DNA of 64,000 nt from an uncultured Sphingomonadales bacterium (GTDB lineage Bacteria; Pseudomonadota; Alphaproteobacteria; Sphingomonadales; Sphingomonadaceae). Positions 15,654 through 34,138 of the stretch are shown here, in pieces (position 1 is the stretch's first letter; each line of letters starts with the position of its first letter). The translations under genes and the position numbers were made by a program. Under the pieces are notes generated by a model. It was not told the origin of the DNA. It was given only the letters and a program-made list of their open reading frames with translations, and searched no databases. The DNA is taken from contig CAIMDB010000008.1 in NCBI GenBank assembly GCA_903839675.1, positions 112,724 to 176,723 on the forward strand, read 5' to 3'.

Positions 15654-16907
15654 TCAGTGCGCCACCGCTGCTGCTGCTGCTTCGTCGATCAACCGGCCGT
15701 TGCGGAACCGGTCGAGATTGAAGGGTGCGTTGATCCGGTGTGGCTCATCCTTCGCCATCGTATAGGCCAAAAGATCACCTGCGCCCGGCGTCGCTTTGAA
15801 GCCACCGGTGCCCCAGCCACAATTCACATAAAGCCCCTGCACCGGCGTCTTGCCGAGAATGGGGGAGCGGTCTGGCGTCACATCGACGATACCGCCCCAG
15901 GTCCGCAGCATCCGCATCCGCCGAAAGATCGGGAAAATCTCGCAAATGGCGGCCAAGGTGTGCTCCACAATGTGAAGCGCACCGCGCTGGGAATAGCTGA
16001 CATATTGGTCGGTCCCTGCCCCAATGACGAGTTCACCCTTGTCGGACTGGCTCATATAGGCGTGGACGGTGTTCGACATGACAACGCATGGGAAAACAGG
16101 CTTGATCGGTTCAGACACCAGAGCCTGTAAGGGATAACTTTCCAGCGGGAAGTCTAGCCCTGCCATCTGCATGATGACCGACGTGTTGCCCGCCGCTGAC
16201 ACGCCAACGCGCTTGGACGCGATATAGCCCCGCGTCGTTTCCACGCCTTCAATCGCGCCATCTGCGCCGCGCCGGATTCCGGTGACGGCGCAATTCTGGA
16301 TGATATCGACGCCAAGGGCTGCCGCCGCACGGGCATAGCCCCAAGCGACCGTATCATGCCGTGCCGTGCCGCCCCGCCGTTGCAGGGCTGCGCCCAACAC
16401 TGGATGGCGCGCATCGGGTGAGATGTTGAGAGGCGGGCAATAGGCCTTGGCCTCTTCGGGCGTCAGCCATTCATTGTCGACGCCATTCAGCCGGTTGGCG
16501 TGGATATGGCGCTTAAAGCTCTGCACGTCGTGCACATTGTGCGCGAGCATCATCACACCGCGCTTGGAATACATGGTGTTGTAGTTGAGTTCCTGGCTCA
16601 GCCCATCCCACAGCTTAACCGCGTGATCGTAAAGATGCGCGCTTTCATCATAGAGATAGTTCGACCGAATGATGGTCGTGTTCCGGCCGGTATTTCCCCC
16701 ACCGATCCAGCCCTTTTCAATGACAGCAACGTTGGTGATGCCGTATTTTTTGGCGAGGTAATACGCCGCGCCAAGGCCGTGGCCGCCACCGCCGACGATG
16801 ATTGCATCATAAGCAGGCTTGGGCGCGGCATCCGGCCATTGCTCAGGCCAGCTTTGATGGCCGCCCAAGGCCTTGGTAAAAAGGCTCAGCGCACTAAAAC
16901 GGGTCAT
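15654..16907 (-). CDS. soxB: Sarcosine oxidase subunit beta (set 2)
   Basis: MTRFSALSLFTKALGGH, IIVGGGGHGLGAAYYLAKKYG, RRGGTARHDTVAWGYARAA. Confidence 0.95.
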   Translation of the reverse strand: MTRFSALSLFTKALGGHQSWPEQWPDAAPKPAYDAIIVGGGGHGLGAAYYLAKKYGITNVAVIEKGWIGGGNTGRNTTIIRSNYLYDESAHLYDHAVKLWDGLSQELNYNTMYSKRGVMMLAHNVHDVQSFKRHIHANRLNGVDNEWLTPEEAKAYCPPLNISPDARHPVLGAALQRRGGTARHDTVAWGYARAAAALGVDIIQNCAVTGIRRGADGAIEGVETTRGYIASKRVGVSAAGNTSVIMQMAGLDFPLESYPLQALVSEPIKPVFPCVVMSNTVHAYMSQSDKGELVIGAGTDQYVSYSQRGALHIVEHTLAAICEIFPIFRRMRMLRTWGGIVDVTPDRSPILGKTPVQGLYVNCGWGTGGFKATPGAGDLLAYTMAKDEPHRINAPFNLDRFRNGRLIDEAAAAAVAH

Positions 16908-17221
16908 GGTCTTGCCTCAACAAATGGCATGTAGGTGATCAGCATCGTGCATCCGTTCCTGCTCCCCGCGCGATGCATTGTGCCCGGCATCCGCAGAACA
17001 AAGTCCCCCGCGCCATAGCTCTCATCATCGTCGAAGAAATCGCCCTCAATTACGTATATTTGCTCGATTTTATCATGGTCGTGCAATGTGCCCAAAGGGC
17101 CAGCTTCAACCCGCATCAGCAGCGTCTGATATCCTGCATCGTCAATCAGCGTGCGGGTTTCGCCGACCGCCAGAGACGCAGCTTCAATCTTGATGGAACC
17201 CGACCGTGGCAGAGGCGTCAT
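16904..17221 (-). CDS. Cupin-domain protein
   Basis: GTLHDHDKIEQIYVIEGDFFDDDESYGAGDFVLRMPGTMHRAGS: HxH...E...H cupin pattern; 4-nt overlaps with both neighbours. Confidence 0.85.
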   Translation of the reverse strand: MTPLPRSGSIKIEAASLAVGETRTLIDDAGYQTLLMRVEAGPLGTLHDHDKIEQIYVIEGDFFDDDESYGAGDFVLRMPGTMHRAGSRNGCTMLITYMPFVEARP

Positions 17222-18468
17222 GCGCCAGCCTTCGCCAGCGCGGCCTTGGCACGGTCAACGTAGAAATCCTTGAAATCCTCGACCAACTTCTCTTCCACGG
17301 CATAGGGACCCTGCTGATAGCCGTCGGTCGAAATGCCCTGATGATTGAGCATCGAGAAATGGCCATCCTGCGTGTTGGTTGCCCGCCACAGGGCCGCAAG
17401 GTGATCAGGATCGTAATCGACGCCTTCCACGGCATCTTCATGTACAAGCCAGCTTGTCCGCAGCAGGGTCTTGCCTGCCGCGACCGGCGTCAGAGAGAAA
17501 GTGACCACATGATCGCAGCAAAAGTGATGCCAGCTATTGGGCTGCGTCCAGACCGATAGGCTGGAGGTTTCCGGCTCCGTAAACGGTCCAATCAGCTTCT
17601 TGCTGGCAAGCTTTCCGTCAATCGACTGGGTCACTGCCCCATTGGCGAGCGGAAGCCGCGCCACTCGGTGCCACCAGCCGTCGGGAAATTCGATCAGGTC
17701 ACGGAAGATGCCCATGGCCTTCCACTGGTCTCGCTTGGCATCCACCATCGCGTCAAATGCACTGTCGTCAACGACATCCGCCTCGCCATCTTCAGGCAGG
17801 CCCTTGCCGAAGCCATAGGTACCTAGAACGCTGATCAGTTCGGGGTGCCCGGCATCGCAATGATAGCATTCCCGGTTGTTCTCCATCACCAACTTCCAGT
17901 TGGCGTCTTCGATGTAATTGTCCTGTACCGCGACCTTGCAGCGTTCCAGATCATAGACGGCAATCTGGTCAACAATATCGGCCTTCACCCGATCAATCGG
18001 CGGCGGATTGTCATCCATGCAGATGAAGATGAGCCCGCCAACATTTTCCAGCGCAACAGGGGCGAGGCCGTGTTCCTTCTTGTCGAAATCCTCGGCCATA
18101 CTGCGCGCAGCGATGAGAGCGCCATCAAGGCCGTAGGTCCACTGGTGGTAGGGGCATGTCAGGCGCGGCGCGCGGCCCCGTTGCTCCTGACAAATCCGCG
18201 CCCCACGATGACGGCACGAGTTCCAAAACGCCCGCACTTCATTGTCGCGTCCACGAATGATGATGATGGAATTGTGCGCCACCTCGAACACGAAATAATC
18301 GCCCGGATTCTTCACATGCGCGACCGTGCAGGCATAGAGCCAGACCGATTTCAGCATGACCTGCGTGTCAAACTGAAAGGCCTCCTCGCTCACATACAAG
18401 TCACGCGGCAGGCTCAGGCCCTTGCGGTCCGAAGCGAGAAGTTGGGCAATGGGTTCGAAGCGGGACAT
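17218..18468 (-). CDS. Rieske ring-hydroxylating oxygenase alpha subunit, glycine-betaine-monooxygenase (GbcA)-like
   Basis: Rieske CRHRG...CPYHQW; mononuclear iron motif ENNRECYHCDAGHPEL; adjacent to DMGDH- and Sox-family genes and BCCT. Confidence 0.85.
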   Translation of the reverse strand: MSRFEPIAQLLASDRKGLSLPRDLYVSEEAFQFDTQVMLKSVWLYACTVAHVKNPGDYFVFEVAHNSIIIIRGRDNEVRAFWNSCRHRGARICQEQRGRAPRLTCPYHQWTYGLDGALIAARSMAEDFDKKEHGLAPVALENVGGLIFICMDDNPPPIDRVKADIVDQIAVYDLERCKVAVQDNYIEDANWKLVMENNRECYHCDAGHPELISVLGTYGFGKGLPEDGEADVVDDSAFDAMVDAKRDQWKAMGIFRDLIEFPDGWWHRVARLPLANGAVTQSIDGKLASKKLIGPFTEPETSSLSVWTQPNSWHHFCCDHVVTFSLTPVAAGKTLLRTSWLVHEDAVEGVDYDPDHLAALWRATNTQDGHFSMLNHQGISTDGYQQGPYAVEEKLVEDFKDFYVDRAKAALAKAGA

Positions 18469-18472
18469 GGTC

Positions 18473-20980
18473 TTAGCTCCTTAACGCGTTGTTTTCCGGA
18501 TCATATGGCGAATCCTCGATCAGCGTTGCCTTGTGAAGCTTGCCAAGGATGGCGATTTCAAACTCCGCACCGGCCACAGCAAGGTCCGGATGGATCATCG
18601 CAAGCGCAAGGCTCTTGCCGACGCGCCAGCCATAGCCGCCAGATGTCACACGCCCGACAATCTCGCCATCCTTGTAGATGGCTTCAGACCCGCGGGCGTC
18701 GGCATCGGTAATGCCGTGGACTTCCATCGTCACCAGCGTGTTGGACAGGCCCTTGTCCTTCCAGGCCAGCAGCGCGTCCTTGCCGAAGAAGCCCGGCTTT
18801 TTGAGGCTGATGAACCGGTCCAGACCGCTTTCCAGCGCGGCATATTCCACCGACAATTCGCGTGGGATCAGCTTGTAGCTCTTTTCCAGCGCCATCAGCG
18901 TCATCGCGCGGATGCCGAAGGGCTTGATGTCAAATTCTGCGCCAGCCTCCATCAGCAGATCAAAGATGTAGTTCTGCATCTCGATCGGGTGATGAATCTC
19001 CCACCCGAGTTCCCCGATGAAATTCACGCGCAGCGCCTCGACCTGAGCGAGGCCGACGCTGATCTTCTGGCCGGTCAGCCAAGGGAAAGCCGCGTTGGAC
19101 AAGTCCGCATCGGTCAGCTTCTGAAGAACGTCACGCGCGCGGGGCCCTGCGAGAACCAGAACACCCATCGACGTTGTCAGGCGTTCAAACGAAACGGAGC
19201 CATCGCGCGGCATCGCCTTTTTCAGATAGTCATGGTCGTGCCGCTCATAAGCGCCTGCCGACACGAGGTAATAGCGCTGCGGCGCGACCTTGTAGACGGT
19301 GAACTCACTGCGCACGCCGCCCTTGGATGTGAGCAGGTAGGACAGCGAAACACGCCCCTGCTTCTTGGGCACCGCGTTGGTCAACAACTGGTCGAGCCAT
19401 GCTTCGGCTCCGGGACCGGAGATTTCACACTTAGCGAAGGCGCTCATGTCCTGAAGGCCAACCTTTTCATGAACATGACGGCATTCATTGCCAACATGTT
19501 CAAAATAGTTGGAGCGGCGGAACGACCATTTTTCGCGGATCACTTCACCCGGCACGTCAGGGTGGTTGTGGTTCAACAGAACGTCCGGCTTGTCGAGATC
19601 ACCCTCCGTCAGCGCATAGCCAGCAGGCGCGAACCAGTTCGGGCGCTCCCAGCCATAAACCGAACCAAATACAGCGCCGAGCGCCTTCATCCGGTCATAG
19701 CACGGCGTGCGGCGCAGTGCCCGTCCCGCTTCGCGCTCTTCATCCGGATAGTGCACGGTGAAGACCTTGGCATAGGCTTCCTCATTCTTTTCGATGAGGA
19801 AACCGCGGCCCGCATAGTCGCCGAAGCGGCGGGGATCGACGCCCATCATGTCGATGGTCGGCTCCCCATCAACAATCCAGTGTGCCAACTGCCAGCCGGC
19901 ACCTCCGGCCGCCGTCACGCCAAAGCTATGGCCTTCATTGAGCCAGAAATTTTTGAGGCCCCATGCCGGTCCGACAATTGGCGATCCGTCAGGCGTATAG
20001 GCGATTGCGCCGTTATAAACCTTCTTGATGCCCACTTCGCCAAAGGCCGGAACGCGCTCCATGGCGGCCATGATGTATGGCTCCAGACGCTCGAGCGCGT
20101 CGGGGAAGAGTTCATATTCGCTGTTGGCGGCAGGCCCGTCGACATAGCAAGCCGGTGCGCCGACTTCATATGGTCCGAGCAGAAGGCCACCAGCCTCCTC
20201 TCGCATGTAATAGCTGGCATCGGATTCGCGCAGGACGCCCATTTCGGGCAGACCCTGCTTCTTGCGCTCCATGATCGCGGGGTGCTGTTCGGTGACGATA
20301 TACTGGTGCTCAACGGGGATGACGGGAATGTCGAGCCCAACCATGGCGCCGGTCTGGCGCGCGAAATTGCCCGAACAGGAAATCACGTGCTCGCACGTGA
20401 TGTCACCCTGATCGGTCGAGATCAGCCATTCGCCATTGGGCTGCTGCGTGATCGCATTCACAGTGGTGTTGCGATAGATGGTCGCTCCGCGCTGCCGTGC
20501 GCCTTTGGCCAGCGCCTGCGTCAGATCGGCGGGCTGGATATAGCCATCTTCAGGATGCTGGATCGCGCCGATGACGCCTTCAGTGTTGCAGAGTGGCCAG
20601 ATCTCCTTGACCTGCTCGGGCGTCAGGAAGTTCACATCGACGCCGATGGTGCGGGCAACGCCTGCATAATATTGATATTCGTCCATCCGGTCCTGCGTCG
20701 TCGCGAGCCGGATGTTGGTCACCTGCGAAAAGCCAACATTCAGCTCTGTCTCCGCCTCAAGGCTCGGGTACAGCCCGACCGAATACTGATGCAGCTTACC
20801 GACCGAATAGCTGAGGTTGAACAGCGGCAGCAGACCGGCCGCGTGCCAGGTCGAGCCCGACGTCAGTTCCTTGCGCTCCAGAAGGACGACATCGGTCCAT
20901 CCTAGCTTTGCGAGATGATAGAGCGTGCTGACGCCCACCACACCACCGCCAATGACCACTGCACGCGCTGTCGATTTCAT
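18473..20980 (-). CDS. DMGDH/sarcosine dehydrogenase-like flavoprotein (DAO + GcvT domains)
   Basis: ARAVVIGGGVVGVSTLYHLAKLGWTDVVLLERKELTSGSTWHAAG; C-terminal GcvT-like domain. Start MKSTARAV at 20980. Confidence 0.9.
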   Translation of the reverse strand: MKSTARAVVIGGGVVGVSTLYHLAKLGWTDVVLLERKELTSGSTWHAAGLLPLFNLSYSVGKLHQYSVGLYPSLEAETELNVGFSQVTNIRLATTQDRMDEYQYYAGVARTIGVDVNFLTPEQVKEIWPLCNTEGVIGAIQHPEDGYIQPADLTQALAKGARQRGATIYRNTTVNAITQQPNGEWLISTDQGDITCEHVISCSGNFARQTGAMVGLDIPVIPVEHQYIVTEQHPAIMERKKQGLPEMGVLRESDASYYMREEAGGLLLGPYEVGAPACYVDGPAANSEYELFPDALERLEPYIMAAMERVPAFGEVGIKKVYNGAIAYTPDGSPIVGPAWGLKNFWLNEGHSFGVTAAGGAGWQLAHWIVDGEPTIDMMGVDPRRFGDYAGRGFLIEKNEEAYAKVFTVHYPDEEREAGRALRRTPCYDRMKALGAVFGSVYGWERPNWFAPAGYALTEGDLDKPDVLLNHNHPDVPGEVIREKWSFRRSNYFEHVGNECRHVHEKVGLQDMSAFAKCEISGPGAEAWLDQLLTNAVPKKQGRVSLSYLLTSKGGVRSEFTVYKVAPQRYYLVSAGAYERHDHDYLKKAMPRDGSVSFERLTTSMGVLVLAGPRARDVLQKLTDADLSNAAFPWLTGQKISVGLAQVEALRVNFIGELGWEIHHPIEMQNYIFDLLMEAGAEFDIKPFGIRAMTLMALEKSYKLIPRELSVEYAALESGLDRFISLKKPGFFGKDALLAWKDKGLSNTLVTMEVHGITDADARGSEAIYKDGEIVGRVTSGGYGWRVGKSLALAMIHPDLAVAGAEFEIAILGKLHKATLIEDSPYDPENNALRS

Positions 20981-21075
20981 ACGTTTTAGCCTGACAAAAG
21001 TGAACCGAGATTTGCTCAGTTCGCTATGACAGCAGAAGAGTCGCCGCAACCGGCGCGGTATAGCAACGCCCCTGA

Positions 21076-21128: not shown

Positions 21129-23465
21129 CTAAAGGAACAGCTCCGCTGCCGCATCCATAATCGCATCGGCATCAAGCCGGTAGCGATGGTAGAGATCCGG
21201 CAGATCGCCCGTCTGGCCAAAACTGTCGATGCCAAGCGGACTGACGCGCATGCCCTTCACCCCGCCAAGCCAGGATAAGGCGCCAGGCGATCCGTCAATG
21301 ACGGTGACGAGGCCAGCTGTCGGAGACAAGACCGAGAGCAAGTCTTCCACATGGCTCTGCGGCCTTTTGCCATCGGTCCAGCGCGACGCGTGACGCGCCG
21401 ACCATTCTCGGTGCAGCAGGTCCGGCGATGTCACATTCAGCAGTCCGATCCCGGGAACATCGTCGACCAGTTGCTCCCAAGCTTGGAGCACTTCCGGCGC
21501 GATGGCTCCGGTAAAGACGATGGCCGCATCCGCATTCGGCCCCGGCTGTTTCAGCCAATAGCCGCCCTTCAGTGCATCCGCCTCCCACGCATCATCTGCG
21601 CGCGCCATCTGCGGAATAACGCGGGTGCTGAGGCGGATGTAGACCGAGCTGCCCTCCGGCTGCTGCATGTAATCAAAGGCCCACCGCATCACGAGGGCAA
21701 CCTCGTCAGCCCATGCCGGTTCAAAATAAGCGAGATTTGGCTGACCCATGCCAATGAGCGGCGTGTTGATGGACTGGTGCGCGCCGCCTTCTGGCCCAAG
21801 CGTCAGCCCAGACGGCGTCCCAACCAGCAGAAAGCGGGCATCGGAATAACAACCGTAATTCAGGGCATCGAGGCCGCGCGCAATGAACGGATCATAGACC
21901 GTCCCCACTGGGATCAACCGCGTGCCGAAATGCGGACCTGCCAGCCCCAAGGATGTCATGGCGAGGAAGAAGTTGTTCTCCGCAATACCAAGCTCAATGT
22001 GTTGCCCTGCGGCATGGCCATCCCATTTTTGGGCAGATGGAATTTTGGCCGCACGGAATACGTCGACCATCTCCGCCCGGCGAAACAGCCCGCGCTGGTT
22101 GACGAAGGCGCCAAGGTTCGTTGTCTGCGTCACGTCCGGTGCCGTGGTGACGATGCGGTCCGCCAAGGGTTCATCGGACTTGGCCAGTTCGAGCAAGACA
22201 TTGCCAAAGGCAGCCTGCGTGGACTGGGCGTCGGACGCCGGAAAGGCCAAGCGTACGGGGACCGGGATGGTCGGCGCTTCCGCCTCAGGCGCTTTGACCG
22301 CCAAGGCGCTGCTGGACACAAACTCTTTCAGGCGCGCGGCCTGATTATCCCCAAGGCCGCCATAGGGCTCCCATTCATCCCCCACCGGGATCGCGAGGCT
22401 TTGGCGCAGCTGATCAATCTGCCCCGGGTTCATCATCCCCGAATGATTGTCTTTGTGTCCGGCCAGCGGCAGGCCGTGGCCCTTCACCGTATAGGCGATG
22501 AACAATGTCGGCAGTTCATCCTGCGCACTGTCAAACGCGTCGATCAGGCTTTCCACGCAATGTCCGCCCAAATTGGTCATCAACGCGGCCAGACCGTCAT
22601 CATCAAAGCTGTCGAGCAGCGCACGGACCTTTGCGGTGCCGCCAATGTCCGCCATCAAACGCTGCCGCCACGCCGCCCCGCCCTGATAGGTCAGCGCAGC
22701 AAATTCGGCATTGGGGCAATTGTCGATCCAGTCCGCAATCGCCTGCCCGCCGGGCTGAGCGAACACTTTGCGCTGCAGCTTGCCGTGCTTCAGCGTGATG
22801 ACACGCCAGCCGCAGGTCTCGAAGATATCATCGAAACGCCGGAACATACGGTCAGCCGTCGTGCTGTCCAGCGACTGGCGGTTATAATCGACCACCCACC
22901 AGCAGTTGCGGATGTCGTGCTTATAGCCCTCGATCAGGCATTCGTAGATGTTGCCTTCATCGAGTTCCGCATCGCCCATCAGAGCAATCATGCGCCCAGA
23001 GTTCTGCTCGTCCATCTGGCCATGCGCGATCAGATAGTCCTGAACGAGGCTGGAAAAGGCGGTGATGGCGACACCGAGTCCAACAGACCCCGTCGAGAAA
23101 TCAACGGGGATCTTATCCTTGGTCCGCGAAGGATAGCTCTGCGCGCCGCCGAGCGCCCGAAAGCGCTGCAACTGTTCCAGCGACTGGTTGCCCAAAAGAT
23201 AGTGGATCGCCTGAAGGACGGGCCCGGCATGCGGTTTCACCGCAACCTTGTCCTGCGGGCGCAACGCATGGAAATAGAGCGCAGACATGATCGCCGTCAT
23301 CGACGCGCAGCTGGCCTGATGCCCGCCAACCTTCAGCCCATCACGCTTCTCACGGATGTGGTTGGCATTGTGCACCGTCCAGGAGGACAACCAGCGCAAC
23401 CGGGTATCAAGCGCCTCTAACGCAGAAACAACGTCCGTGCGGCTATCCGCAGTCAGGGTAGGCAT
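21129..23465 (-). CDS. Transketolase/homodimeric pyruvate-dehydrogenase E1 (AceE)-like enzyme, MdeB-like 2-oxoacid (2-oxobutyrate?) dehydrogenase E1
   Basis: KVGGHQASCASMTAIMSALYFHALRPQDKVAVKPHAGP, ThDP motif MGDAELDEGNIYE...VVDYNRQSLD, LGIAENNFFLAMTSLGL. Confidence 0.78.
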   Translation of the reverse strand: MPTLTADSRTDVVSALEALDTRLRWLSSWTVHNANHIREKRDGLKVGGHQASCASMTAIMSALYFHALRPQDKVAVKPHAGPVLQAIHYLLGNQSLEQLQRFRALGGAQSYPSRTKDKIPVDFSTGSVGLGVAITAFSSLVQDYLIAHGQMDEQNSGRMIALMGDAELDEGNIYECLIEGYKHDIRNCWWVVDYNRQSLDSTTADRMFRRFDDIFETCGWRVITLKHGKLQRKVFAQPGGQAIADWIDNCPNAEFAALTYQGGAAWRQRLMADIGGTAKVRALLDSFDDDGLAALMTNLGGHCVESLIDAFDSAQDELPTLFIAYTVKGHGLPLAGHKDNHSGMMNPGQIDQLRQSLAIPVGDEWEPYGGLGDNQAARLKEFVSSSALAVKAPEAEAPTIPVPVRLAFPASDAQSTQAAFGNVLLELAKSDEPLADRIVTTAPDVTQTTNLGAFVNQRGLFRRAEMVDVFRAAKIPSAQKWDGHAAGQHIELGIAENNFFLAMTSLGLAGPHFGTRLIPVGTVYDPFIARGLDALNYGCYSDARFLLVGTPSGLTLGPEGGAHQSINTPLIGMGQPNLAYFEPAWADEVALVMRWAFDYMQQPEGSSVYIRLSTRVIPQMARADDAWEADALKGGYWLKQPGPNADAAIVFTGAIAPEVLQAWEQLVDDVPGIGLLNVTSPDLLHREWSARHASRWTDGKRPQSHVEDLLSVLSPTAGLVTVIDGSPGALSWLGGVKGMRVSPLGIDSFGQTGDLPDLYHRYRLDADAIMDAAAELFL

Positions 23466-23511
23466 GGCCGGATCTCCGCATGATGGTTTTTCCCGAATAG
23501 CGCTGAAGGTC

Positions 23512-23523
23512 AGGACATGTCCT
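23512..23523. promoter_or_regulatory. 12-bp perfect palindrome AGGACATGTCCT in the mdeB-like/lrp divergent intergenic region
   Basis: Direct reading of sequence; located between divergent starts. Confidence 0.45.
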
Positions 23524-23550
23524 TGCGAATTCCGCTACCTTTCGGTACTG

Positions 23551-23602
23551 AATTGGCATACTCAGCCCAAAATAAACATATTTGGAGCATATTATGCCAA
23601 TT
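23551..23602. promoter_or_regulatory. 52-bp imperfect palindrome overlapping lrp start codon
   Basis: Outer arms AATTGGCATA / TATGCCAATT are a perfect 10-bp inverted repeat; inner AAATA half-sites also pair; 19 of 26 mirrored positions match; the second arm contains ATG 23594. Confidence 0.55.
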
Positions 23603-24070
23603 TTTTCTCCAGACCCGATTGATATCAAAATTCTGGAGGCCCTTCAGGCAAATGGGCGGATCACCAATCAGGAACTGGCAGATCAGGTCGGCCTCTCGCC
23701 CAGCCCATGCCTACGTCGCGTCCGGCATCTCGAAAGCGAAGGCGTCATCTCACGCTATGTCGCTCTGGTGGACCCTGAGGCGCTTGACCTGAATGTGACG
23801 GCCTTCGTCCGTGTCCGGCTCGACCAGCAGGATGACCGCCACCTCGAAGCCTTTGAGTTGGCCATCGCCGGATTTCCCGAAGTCATGGAATGCTATTTGA
23901 TGACCGGCGAGTCCGACTATCAATTGCGCGTTCTCGTCCGGTCATTGACCCGCTTTGAGGAGTTTCTGCGTAACAGCCTGACACGCGTCCCCGGCGTGGC
24001 CAATGTCACGACAAGTTTTGCCCTGCGTCCCGTCATTTACAAAACGGCGCTGCCAACGCTAGACACCTAG
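23594..24070 (+). CDS. Lrp/AsnC-family transcriptional regulator (MdeR-like by context)
   Basis: DIKILEALQANGRITNQELADQVGLSPSPCLRRVRHLESEGVISRYVALVD. Alternative start at 23582 in same frame. Confidence 0.92.
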   Translation: MPIFSPDPIDIKILEALQANGRITNQELADQVGLSPSPCLRRVRHLESEGVISRYVALVDPEALDLNVTAFVRVRLDQQDDRHLEAFELAIAGFPEVMECYLMTGESDYQLRVLVRSLTRFEEFLRNSLTRVPGVANVTTSFALRPVIYKTALPTLDT

Positions 24071-29376: not shown

Positions 29377-30447
29377 CTATCCGGCGAGGACGAACTTACC
29401 GACATGGCGTTTGGTCAAGAACGCCTCCTGCGCCTTGACGATGTCGGACAGCGGGAAGGTCGCCGCGATGCAGGGTTTGATCTCCCCGCGCTCGATATAG
29501 CCGATAAGATTGGAAAACACCTCTGGCTCCAGCACCGTGCAGCCGAACAGGCGAAGATCTTTTAGGTAGAGCGTACGAAGGTCGAGATCGACGATTGGGC
29601 CGGAGATTGCGCCCGACACCCCATAACGCCCGCCGCGCTTGAGGGTGTTCAGAATGGCATCAAACTGCGCTCCACCCACAACATCGACGGCGGCGTCAAA
29701 ATGGTCATGGCCAAAATGTGCTTCCAGATCGGCATCGCGCGGTACGATCTGGTCTGCGCCTAAGGCGCGCACGGCATCGGCCTTGTCACCGCCGACCATC
29801 GCCACGACCTCCGCCCCGCGCCGCTTGGCGAGTTGGACAGCAGCAGACCCCACGCCACCGGAGGCGCCGGTAATCAGCACCCGCTCCCCTGCTGCAAGCG
29901 CAATCCGCGTCAGGATGTTCTCCGCTGCCGAATAGGCACAAGGGAAGCTGGCGAGTTCAATATCGCTCAGGTCGCACTCAATGCGGTGCGCGTAGTCAGC
30001 AGGAACACAGGCATAGTCGGCAAAAGCGCCGTCAACCTCAGACCCGAAATAGCGGACATCAAATCGATCCGACCCGCGAAACACCGGCTCAACCAGAACG
30101 CGTTCCCCGATGCGGGATGTGTCTACACCCGGCCCGACCGCGACGATCCGGCCACAAGCATCCGCCCCCTGAATACGGGGGAAGTGAAAGGCTTCGCCCG
30201 ACCAGCCATCGTCGCCGGCGCCGGCCATCCCGCTCGCCGCACCCACGTCTGTGGCCTCGGCCACGGTCTTGGAGTACCAGCCGATCCGCGTGTTGATATC
30301 GGTATTATTGACCCCCGCCGCACCGACGCGGATCAGGACGTCCCCTGCCCCGGGCTGCGGGACAGGGACATCGTCCCGCAGATCAAGGCAATCAAACCCG
30401 CCATGCCGGGTCAGCAAGACCGCGCGCATGGTGGCGGGGATGGTCAT
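29377..30447 (-). CDS. MDR-family zinc-type alcohol dehydrogenase / quinone oxidoreductase
   Basis: GAAGVNNTDINTRIGWY, VLITGASGGVGSAAVQLAKRRGAEVVAMVG. Start at 30447 (ATGA overlap) preferred. Confidence 0.88.
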   Translation of the reverse strand: MTIPATMRAVLLTRHGGFDCLDLRDDVPVPQPGAGDVLIRVGAAGVNNTDINTRIGWYSKTVAEATDVGAASGMAGAGDDGWSGEAFHFPRIQGADACGRIVAVGPGVDTSRIGERVLVEPVFRGSDRFDVRYFGSEVDGAFADYACVPADYAHRIECDLSDIELASFPCAYSAAENILTRIALAAGERVLITGASGGVGSAAVQLAKRRGAEVVAMVGGDKADAVRALGADQIVPRDADLEAHFGHDHFDAAVDVVGGAQFDAILNTLKRGGRYGVSGAISGPIVDLDLRTLYLKDLRLFGCTVLEPEVFSNLIGYIERGEIKPCIAATFPLSDIVKAQEAFLTKRHVGKFVLAG

Positions 30448-31694
30448 TCCGCCCGCGCCAACCCGAACTGGTTGAGGTACCATTTCTGGAAATTGATCAC
30501 GCTGCCTTCCTGATCGGAATAGCGGCCCGGACGATAACGGCTGGACATGATGCCGGCCTGATTATTCTCGGTGATCACCTTATCCTGCGTCGTCGTGGCG
30601 TGATACCCCCAGATCATCTTGTCGATATCGACCTGATCTTCGGTGGCGCGGCCATCGACCAGCCAGATCATCTCCACATCCGTTTCGAGCGCCCCGCGCG
30701 GGGTGAACTGGAATAGGATCACGAAATGGTCATCGGCTACAATCTGGCTGAACGGGCTGAAGCTCAAATGCATCCGGCCGCCATCAGCCTTTGTGCGCTT
30801 ACCCATCAAAGGCGACGGCGCCGTGCCATCCTGCGTCTCGGCGGCAAAACCTTCCTTGTTCATCCGCTGCATCAAGAGGCGTAGATGGCTAGTATCGGCG
30901 GCCTCGTCGATATTGCCAATCGGGCGCCCTGCAGCGGCGGCGCTGTCTTCCCAAGCCTTCAGCTTTGGCGTGAAGCCCGCAATTGCGTCTGCCGGACCAG
31001 ACCTTGGCCCCGCGCCGACTGCCACCAGAGTTTCCGCCGCATGCATGGAGCAGAATTCGGGGTGCGACGGCACGCAGTGGTAACATTCAAAGAAGTTTTC
31101 CACGACCAGCTTCCAGTTGGCCGTCGTGGGATAACTTCCCGCGTGCGCGATGCGCGCATCCGCCATGCCATGATAGTCAAGGATCGGGCCCATATCGCCA
31201 AAGGTCGCGTCGAAATCGACGGGCTCGTCTTCGCTCATATTGATGAAGATAAGGCCGTGGAACACCCGGATATGGCAGGCAATCAGGCTGTTTTCCGCCT
31301 TGTTGAAATCCTCCGGCATAAGGCGCGCGGATATCAGCCGACCGTCCAACCCGAATGTCCAAGCGTGATAGGGGCAGACGAGACGTGGCGCATTGCCGCT
31401 TTCGGCTGAACAGATGGTCGACCCACGATGACGGCAGACATTGAAGAAAGCGCGGACGCTGTCTTCATTCTCCCGGATGACGATGATCTGTTCCGACCCG
31501 ATCTTGAACAGGAAATAGTCGCCCTTCTTGGGGATGCGCGACACATGGCCCGCAACGATCCATTTCTGGCTGATCACCTGATCGAAGTCGGCCTTGAACA
31601 CCGCGTCGCTCGCGTAAAATTCCTGATCAAAACTATAGCCGACCCGCGTGTTGGCAGCGAGACGGTGCATCAATTGGTTCTGGGTTTCAGACAT
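30444..31694 (-). CDS. Rieske ring-hydroxylating oxygenase alpha subunit (second, divergent)
   Basis: CRHRG...CPYHAWTFGLDG; VENFFECYHCVPSHPEF iron site. Confidence 0.88.
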   Translation of the reverse strand: MSETQNQLMHRLAANTRVGYSFDQEFYASDAVFKADFDQVISQKWIVAGHVSRIPKKGDYFLFKIGSEQIIVIRENEDSVRAFFNVCRHRGSTICSAESGNAPRLVCPYHAWTFGLDGRLISARLMPEDFNKAENSLIACHIRVFHGLIFINMSEDEPVDFDATFGDMGPILDYHGMADARIAHAGSYPTTANWKLVVENFFECYHCVPSHPEFCSMHAAETLVAVGAGPRSGPADAIAGFTPKLKAWEDSAAAAGRPIGNIDEAADTSHLRLLMQRMNKEGFAAETQDGTAPSPLMGKRTKADGGRMHLSFSPFSQIVADDHFVILFQFTPRGALETDVEMIWLVDGRATEDQVDIDKMIWGYHATTTQDKVITENNQAGIMSSRYRPGRYSDQEGSVINFQKWYLNQFGLARAE

Positions 31695-34138
31695 CAGATT
31701 TTGATCCGTGCGTTTGTGGGGTCATACATAGGCTTAAGCGAGGCTGTCGCGGGATATCGGACACCGGCGATTTCGATTTCAAAATCATCCGCGCCAATCG
31801 GACCAACGACACCACCGTCTGCGGCTGTCACATAGCCAAGGCCACAGGCCCCGCCGAGCATCTGGGCATACATGCCCGAGCGGATGTAACCGGCAATCCG
31901 ATCCCCCTGCCAGATGGGCTCATTGTGATAGAGCATTGGCTCAGGCGATTTGAGCAGGAACTGGACGAGCTTTTGCTTCAGCCCCTCTTCCTTCTGCTTC
32001 AACAGCGCGTCGCGTCCGATAAAGCCGCCGGGCTTGTCCATCTTCACCGCAAAACCAAGGCCGGCTTCCAGCGGGGTGTCTTCATCGGTGATGTCATGGC
32101 CCCAGTGGCGGTAGCCCTTTTCCATGCGCAGCGCGTTGAGCGCGTGATAGCCGCAATGCTTGAGGCCAAAGGCAGCACCCGCCGCGACGATCTCATCATA
32201 AACGCCGGTCATGAACTCGGTCGGGATATACAGCTCCCAACCCAGTTCACCGACATAGGTGATCCGCGAGGCGCGCACGATCGCATAGCCAAGCTCAATC
32301 TCTTGGCTTGTCGCAAAGGGGAAGGCCTCGTGCGACAGATCATTGGGGCAGATCGACTGGAGCAGCGCGCGCGCATTCGGGCCCATGATCGAAATGACGC
32401 CCATGGCGGACGACACGTTGGTGAGAATGGCGTGGGCGTCGTCCGGGATATGCCGGCTCAGCCAGTTGAAGTCCTTCACCTCGGTCTCAGCGCCCGTGAC
32501 AATCAGATAGGCCGTCTGCGAAAGGCGGGTGACGGTCAGGTCGGCCTCGATGCCGCCCTTCTCATTCAGCCACTGGGTGTAGATGAGCTTGCCCGGTGCC
32601 ACGTCGACATCATTCGCGCAGACCCGGTTGAGCACGGCACAGGCGTCGCGGCCTTCGAGGCGGAATTTGGCGAAGGAGCTTTGGTCGAACAGGCCAACAG
32701 CTTCGCGCACCGCCTTGCACTCGGCCGCGTTCGCTTCAAACCAGTTCTGGCGGCCATAGCTATATTCATATTTTGGCGTGGTGCCCGGTTCTGCATACCA
32801 ATTGGGACGCTCCCAACCGAAGGCCTCCCCATGGCAGGCCCCTGCCGCGACCAGCCGGTCATGGATGGCAGACCGGCGAACGCCGCGGGCGGTTTCATAT
32901 TGCTTAAACGGATAATGCGTCGCGTAGAGCAGGCCGAGGCTTTCCGTCACACGCTCGCGCAGATACTTCCGGTTGATCTGGAACGGCATGTTGCGTCGGA
33001 TGTCGACCGTCCAGAGGTCGGCGGGCGGAATGCCGTCACGGATCCAGTCCGCCATCACCTTGCCGACGCCACCAGCCGATTGCAGGCCAATAGAGTTCAG
33101 CCCGGCCGCGACAAAGCAGCCCTTCAATTCCGCACTCTCACCCAGATGATAGCGCACGTCTGGTGTGAAGCTTTCCGGGCCACAGAAGAACTTCTGGATG
33201 CCCGCTTTCTCCAGCGCAGGCACGCGCCGCATGGCGTCCATCAACAGCGGTTCGAAATGCTCAAAGCTGCCGGCGATTTCATCGAAGCAGAAGTCTTCGG
33301 AAATGCCGTCCATGCCCCAAGGCCGGGCATTGGGTTCAAACGCGCCAACCAGCAGCTTGCCCGCGTCATATTTGTAATAGCCGCAATAATCATAGTCACG
33401 CAGCACCGGCAGGGTCGGGTCAATGCCTTCCACGCCTTCGAACAGCACATAGTAATGCTCGCATGCATGGAGCGGCGCGGCAACGCCGATGCTGGCCGCC
33501 AGATCACGCGTCCACATGCCGCCGCAGATGACCACATAATCCGCGTCGATGGAGCCATCATCGGTGTCGACGCCTGTCACACGGTCGCCATTGTGGCGGA
33601 TTTTGGTGACCTTGGTGTTTTCAAAAATCTGTGCGCCACCGGTGCGGGCACCCTTGGCCAGCGCCTGCGTGATGTCGACCGCGTTCGCATAGCCATCGCT
33701 CGGGATGTGGATGCCGCCCACGACATCATCGACATTCACAATGTGCGCGAGGTCTTTGATTTCCTGCGGCGTCACGACATGGACGGGAAGGTCAAACACC
33801 TTCGCCATAGAGGCGCTGCGCTTCAGCTCTTCAAAACGTTCTGCATTGGTCGCCATCGAGATGGAACCGCACTGCCGGTACCCCGTCGCCTGCCCGGTTT
33901 CCGCTTCCAGCCCGCGATAGAGTTCGCCTGTATATTTGGCGAGCTTCGTCATGTTGATCGACGGGCGCAATTGCCCGACGAGCCCGGCCGCATGCCAGGT
34001 CGTGCCGCTGGTCAGCTGCTTGCGTTCCAGCAGGACGACATCGTCCCAACCAATCTTGGTCAGGTGATAGGCAATCGAGCATCCAATCACACCACCGCCG
34101 ACGATGACGACACGCGCCTTTTTGGGAAGTTCAGCCAC
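31694..34138 (-). CDS. DMGDH/sarcosine dehydrogenase-like flavoprotein (DAO + GcvT)
   Basis: ARVVIVGGGVIGCSIAYHLTKIGWDDVVLLERKQLTSGTTWHAAG; C-terminal YVGELGWELYIPTEF...GHDITDEDTPLEAGLGFAVK. Confidence 0.9.
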   Translation of the reverse strand: MAELPKKARVVIVGGGVIGCSIAYHLTKIGWDDVVLLERKQLTSGTTWHAAGLVGQLRPSINMTKLAKYTGELYRGLEAETGQATGYRQCGSISMATNAERFEELKRSASMAKVFDLPVHVVTPQEIKDLAHIVNVDDVVGGIHIPSDGYANAVDITQALAKGARTGGAQIFENTKVTKIRHNGDRVTGVDTDDGSIDADYVVICGGMWTRDLAASIGVAAPLHACEHYYVLFEGVEGIDPTLPVLRDYDYCGYYKYDAGKLLVGAFEPNARPWGMDGISEDFCFDEIAGSFEHFEPLLMDAMRRVPALEKAGIQKFFCGPESFTPDVRYHLGESAELKGCFVAAGLNSIGLQSAGGVGKVMADWIRDGIPPADLWTVDIRRNMPFQINRKYLRERVTESLGLLYATHYPFKQYETARGVRRSAIHDRLVAAGACHGEAFGWERPNWYAEPGTTPKYEYSYGRQNWFEANAAECKAVREAVGLFDQSSFAKFRLEGRDACAVLNRVCANDVDVAPGKLIYTQWLNEKGGIEADLTVTRLSQTAYLIVTGAETEVKDFNWLSRHIPDDAHAILTNVSSAMGVISIMGPNARALLQSICPNDLSHEAFPFATSQEIELGYAIVRASRITYVGELGWELYIPTEFMTGVYDEIVAAGAAFGLKHCGYHALNALRMEKGYRHWGHDITDEDTPLEAGLGFAVKMDKPGGFIGRDALLKQKEEGLKQKLVQFLLKSPEPMLYHNEPIWQGDRIAGYIRSGMYAQMLGGACGLGYVTAADGGVVGPIGADDFEIEIAGVRYPATASLKPMYDPTNARIKI

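Follow-up and report, generated by a model that had tools for sequence, protein, structure and literature searches.

The 52-bp palindrome at positions 23551-23602 of the window (the whole stretch of 64,000 nucleotides analysed here) is real, yet it is made up of two copies of a putative 17-bp DNA-binding site that lie three helical turns apart. We put at roughly 0.8 the probability that these two helically phased sites are the autoregulatory operator of the Lrp/AsnC-family local regulator encoded downstream of them. At the paired sites the regulator would very probably switch off its own gene, and the divergent E1-like gene is a likely second target. A sequence-only reading of the region had already offered an Lrp operator as one of its options, and that option is well supported by conservation, although the anatomy given for it, nested arms four turns apart, gives way to two 17-bp sites spaced by 31 bp.

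Anatomy of the palindrome

Much of the original description of this element stands. The 10-bp inverted repeat formed by AATTGGCATA (23551-23560) and TATGCCAATT (23593-23602) is perfect, 19 of the 26 mirrored positions of the 52-bp palindrome match, 42 bp separate the arm centres, and the second arm does hold the lrp start, with ATG at 23594 as the likely start codon and GGAG at 23584-23587 as the ribosome-binding site. What does not stand is the inner CCAAAATA/TATTTGG dyad on which the arms were said to be centred, as it is imperfect, requires a bulge for pairing and is not conserved in Sphingomonadaceae orthologues. Arms of 10 bp are in themselves unremarkable in 64 kb, because perfect 10-bp inverted repeats with loops of up to 60 number 6 in the window and a similar 6.8 in shuffles. 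When such arms are combined with at least 73% mirroring over at least 20 half-positions, a single case is found in the window and none in 30 shuffles, and any perfect 10-bp repeat at all is held by 0.7% of local 170-bp shuffles. The full palindrome pattern occurs once in the 64-kb window, and the relaxed outer-half pattern TTRGCA-N36-TGCCAA is met at this locus only in the 2.9-Mb genome.

Comparison with relatives, which comprised named genomes together with relatives of this genome, shows where the symmetry is kept. Mirroring across eight same-genus loci is 82.5% for the outer ten pairs and 30.5% for the inner sixteen, where about 28% is expected, and it is 32% for the inner CCAAAATA/TATTTGG pairs outside the genus; that dyad is therefore nearly private to this genome. 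A single nested 52-bp dyad was rejected, its inner part being without conservation in relatives. What Sphingomonadaceae orthologues do keep are two 17-bp sites matching TTGGCAtAatATGCCAA, whose centres, at -33 and -2 relative to the lrp ATG, are 31 bp, or three turns, apart. Putative operator site 1, TTGGCATACTCAGCCCA, spans 23553-23569 (centre 23561, at -33) in a conserved block from -42 to -27, and putative operator site 2, GGAGCATATTATGCCAA, spans 23584-23600 (centre 23592, at -2) in a conserved block from -8 to +8 and holds both the ribosome-binding site and the start codon. Both are copies of one imperfect palindrome with the consensus TTGGCATAATATGCCAA, whose symmetric matrix is almost all A/T at the central position. 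The two arms first described pair with each other because they are the outer halves of two copies of this palindrome, and the element at 23551-23602, unstranded like the sites themselves, consists of the outer half-sites of sites 1 and 2 with the spacer between them.

Conservation and spacing of the sites

When 25 Sphingomonadaceae upstream regions are lined up on the start codon and compared without gaps, three conserved blocks stand out, namely GTCCTTGCGAA at -75 to -63, ATTGGCAtAaaa.TgTC at about -42 to -27 and GGCAgATtATGCCAA at -8 to +8, with the stretch between the blocks at the two sites poorly conserved. The inner halves of the sites are kept outside the genus, as GGCAGA in site 2 and TGTC in site 1; the inner half of site 1 is weak within the genus of the window, where its self-dyad of 31% is near chance, and is clearer outside it. 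These observations bear on whether the element is one long dyad read by a single protein complex, with 42 bp, or four turns, between its outer half-sites. In the genus of the window the best conserved part is indeed the outer halves (the 82.5% mirroring given above), as such a dyad would have it. Against it stand the inner halves conserved outside the genus, and locus L106, which carries a single site that matches perfectly at 17 of 17 positions without any second arm. Moreover, in 83 more distant homologue loci a spacing of 31 bp is commoner than one of 41-42 bp (32 versus 13), and we consider the long dyad very improbable.

Further evidence for the site pair comes from two test matrices. The first was built solely from site 2 of out-of-genus loci and run on the upstream regions, where 16 of 25 loci had their best second site at exactly -33, compared with at most 4 at any position in 500 shuffles. 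The second, built from both sites of 17 out-of-genus loci, ranked site 2 first and site 1 ninth among the 63,984 positions of the window, in which the pair is the top-scoring 31-bp tandem in 64 kb (24.9 versus 12.1 for the next). In the 83 distant loci, which were outside the input of the matrix and most of whose proteins are about 40-60% identical to the window regulator, a distance of exactly 31 bp separates the best two sites in 32, whereas shuffles gave a mean of 2.0 and a maximum of 7, with the reservation that orthologue counts of this kind share descent and are not independent events. Palindromes that are imperfect, about 13-17 bp long and AT-rich at the centre, at a whole-turn spacing that recurs from the window to the distant loci, are what is expected of an Lrp-type operator array. 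Dimers of Lrp-like proteins recognise imperfect palindromes whose centres are AT-rich, with neighbouring sites lined up on the same helix face at intervals of two or three turns (PMC2995911); a periodicity of 30-31 bp has been noted for the family (PMC8707732).

A regulon search with a single 17-mer and up to two mismatches was uninformative, with nine matches at seven places (four in the reversed control), none of them at the lrp locus, and a paired search of relatives that included the inner half of site 2 returned unrelated places only, its pattern probably being out of register.

The regulator gene and its neighbours

The gene that begins in site 2 (23594-24070, forward strand) encodes a protein of 158 aa with HTH_AsnC-type and AsnC_trans_reg domains, which scores above the family cut-offs (66.1 bits for PF13404, cut-off 27; 84.8 bits for PF01037, cut-off 25) and whose closest relatives of solved structure are 2p5v and E. 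coli Lrp (2gqq). With the NCBIfam equivalog model for the E. coli-type global Lrp, NF008370, it reaches 121.8 bits against a cut-off of 233, and the regulator is therefore a member of the family and not an Lrp orthologue. Divergent to it, on the reverse strand at 21129-23465, lies the gene for a 778-aa homodimeric 2-oxoacid dehydrogenase E1-like protein of the transketolase superfamily, whose similarity to homodimeric pyruvate dehydrogenase E1 is weak yet full-length. Nearly all orthologous loci, from members of the same genus out to distant Proteobacteria, have a gene of the E1 family divergent to the regulator, and at the Pseudomonas locus L023 the sequence reads as a long AceE-type E1 followed by a lipoyl-domain (E2-like) protein. 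The genes downstream of lrp, which encode an amino-acid permease, an AptA-type omega-aminotransferase and a homocysteine S-methyltransferase family protein, are not constant neighbours across these loci. A conserved divergent gene as putative target is the arrangement of divergent local regulators of the BkdR, MdeR and PutR mode. An identity with MdeR itself was rejected, as no mdeA was found among 14 genes scanned between 15654 and 37488, which are part of the genes there.

In principle the lrp-E1 pair could be under another transcription factor, to which the sites would then belong, and further Lrp-like proteins are encoded in the genome. Against this, the sites accompany this particular regulator gene across several proteobacterial classes and the outer-half pattern is found nowhere else in the genome, and we regard a foreign regulator as a poor candidate for the operator.

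Several other features of the region were observed. Two gene clusters resembling those for glycine betaine, dimethylglycine and sarcosine catabolism, with GbcA-like Rieske oxygenases, fused DAO-GcvT proteins and a SoxB-like oxidase, flank the regulator region at 15654-21049 and 30444-34138 of the window. Two more Lrp/AsnC genes stand in tandem about 34 kb upstream in the same genome, beyond the window (G000:C8:102249-103150). Locus L003 is a paralogous Lrp-like gene, 41% identical and in the same genome, which has an upstream palindrome of its own, TTGCAATTTTTTGCAA, at about -56 from its inferred start and close to the Ss-LrpB consensus.

Promoters

The block upstream of site 1 appears to hold two overlapping promoter elements. 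On the forward strand a candidate -35 of lrp, TTGCGA (23523-23528), falls within GTCCTTGCGAA, and its spacing places a weak candidate -10 region at 23546-23553, abutting site 1. Such a -10-like stretch follows the -35 by 17-19 bp and is at its best in L009, as TTGCGA-18-TATAAT; TATAAT, TATAAA or TAATAAT stands immediately 5' of TTGGCA in L009, L105 and L106. The aggregate -10 signal on this side is modest (3.7 versus 3.2 of 6). The lrp transcript would probably start at about 23558-23561, inside both site 1 and the first arm. On the reverse strand the candidate -35 of the E1-like gene, AGGACA (23518-23523), overlaps that of lrp, and TATTCG or GCTATT at 23494-23501 is the candidate -10. AGGAC is present in 23 of 24 anchored orthologues, a count in which part of AGGAC is fixed by construction through the anchor itself, and a -10-like hexamer follows 16-18 bp on, with 3.5 of 6 positions matched versus 2.1 at other offsets, a clear signal that is independent of the anchor. 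An alternative lrp promoter, TTGGCA-18-CATATT, in which the first arm would be the -35, is not favoured, as its start would fall near the ATG. With either lrp promoter candidate, arm 1 would not be wholly contained in the mRNA.

The conservation of TGTCCTTGCGA (23518-23528) across Sphingomonadaceae is stronger than is usual for a -35 element, which may reflect the overlap of two divergent -35 elements or else a weak third regulator site. A candidate for such a site in phase with the other two scores weakly at both -64 (-0.5 in the genus and -8.4 outside it) and -74 (5.0 and -4.1), and the overlapping -35 elements explain the block better.

The start codon and the hairpin

The motif is not tied to the position of the start codon. 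The 31-bp spacing is kept despite a shifted register to the annotated start at loci L009 (linear offsets +5/-26), L017 and L021 (both +1/-30), L030 (-8/-39) and L066 (-17/-48). At L026 the site reads GGCAGGTTCTGCCAATG and the start codon is displaced outside it, and at L101, L105 and L106 the degenerate motif is matched at 17 of 17 positions just before the ribosome-binding site, with the ATG about 10 bp further on. Of 15 Sphingomonadaceae loci whose start does lie within the site, 13 have CCA as codon 2, compared with a CCA share of 21% among proline codons elsewhere in the same genes (p = 4e-7), an excess best explained by selection on the DNA sequence and not on the peptide. The start codon inside a putative operator copy is a minor curiosity, the main unusual feature of an otherwise ordinary control element.

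The sequence-only reading had also suggested that the arms form an mRNA hairpin that hides the start codon and controls lrp translation. The 52-nt RNA of this genome does fold well (-16.7 kcal/mol, z = -4.2 versus dinucleotide shuffles). However, the suggestion finds no support among relatives, in which the inner stem is unpaired and the outer stem is broken at its central pair, -39/+5, in 3 of 8 same-genus sequences, where a G-to-A change leaves A-C with no compensating change in the core. Folds of the full leader are ordinary in most relatives, with z-scores from +0.4 to -1.6 and only L090 and L010 near -2.4, and the homologues at L026, L101, L105 and L106 retain the motif with the start codon elsewhere. 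A transcription start inside the palindrome had been named as the finding that would dispose of the hairpin; the predicted start of lrp falls in arm 1 and, if correct, would exclude one. As the main mechanism we judge the hairpin to have very little chance of being right.

Proposed mode of action

For the autoregulatory operator we propose that each 17-bp imperfect palindrome takes one regulator dimer, so placed that site 1 would abut the -10 and cover the predicted transcription start while site 2 takes in the ribosome-binding site and the start codon, and that occupancy of the two would therefore block the promoter of the regulator itself. Relative to the predicted start of the E1-like gene, the same complex would stand upstream at distances of about 73 and 104 bp, and the promoter of that gene might be activated or held according to an amino-acid or 2-oxoacid ligand.

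A more far-reaching version of this is conceivable and, in our estimation, unlikely. The locus would then belong to an undescribed local regulon that several proteobacterial classes have kept. Fusion of the operator with the translation start (ATGCCA) would put a single 17-bp sequence under simultaneous selection for four roles, those of operator, ribosome-binding site, start codon and second codon, and the regulator would block transcription initiation and, in genomes like this one, possibly also translation through a residual hairpin.

Comparison with known systems

We found no paper describing this regulator-E1 pair in the open-access literature searched. What the analysis adds is a precise putative operator, with its motif, positions and 31-bp phase, for a regulator-enzyme pair that is conserved across several proteobacterial classes. 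It also illustrates how two phased protein-binding sites can give rise, as a by-product, to what looks in a single genome like a 'hairpin over the start codon', an ambiguity that is settled once relatives are compared.

Regulators that are divergent from a catabolic or biosynthetic target, as here, include BkdR and MdeR of Pseudomonas putida, PutR of Alphaproteobacteria and AsnC of E. coli (PMC8707732), and BkdR has the further likeness that it controls a 2-oxoacid dehydrogenase operon. The present locus differs from these four in that its divergent gene encodes the 778-aa homodimeric E1-like protein and that neither mdeA nor putA is among the neighbours scanned. Similar to the sites described here, those of BarR, an Lrp-type regulator of Sulfolobales, are semi-palindromic and regularly spaced in a divergent intergenic region, at two or three turns from one another (PMC10201364). 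The targets of BarR include a divergent aminotransferase, whereas the omega-aminotransferase gene here is downstream of lrp and does not accompany it at every locus.

Ss-LrpB of Sulfolobus solfataricus, which binds its own control region at several sites in phase and is an activator of the neighbouring pyruvate oxidoreductase operon (PMC4046817), shares several traits with the system described here. It too is an Lrp-like regulator, its 15-bp palindrome TTGCAAAATTTGCAA resembles TTGGCATAATATGCCAA (PMC4046817, PMC2995911), and it combines phased sites in its own control region with a neighbouring 2-oxoacid (pyruvate) oxidoreductase operon as target. However, Ss-LrpB is archaeal and acts at three sites, with cooperative binding and DNA wrapping established by experiment, whereas here there are two clear sites at a predicted bacterial promoter, with the start codon inside one of them, identified from sequence. 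Autoregulatory arrays of this type are thus already known, and the putative lrp-E1 operator is a new example.
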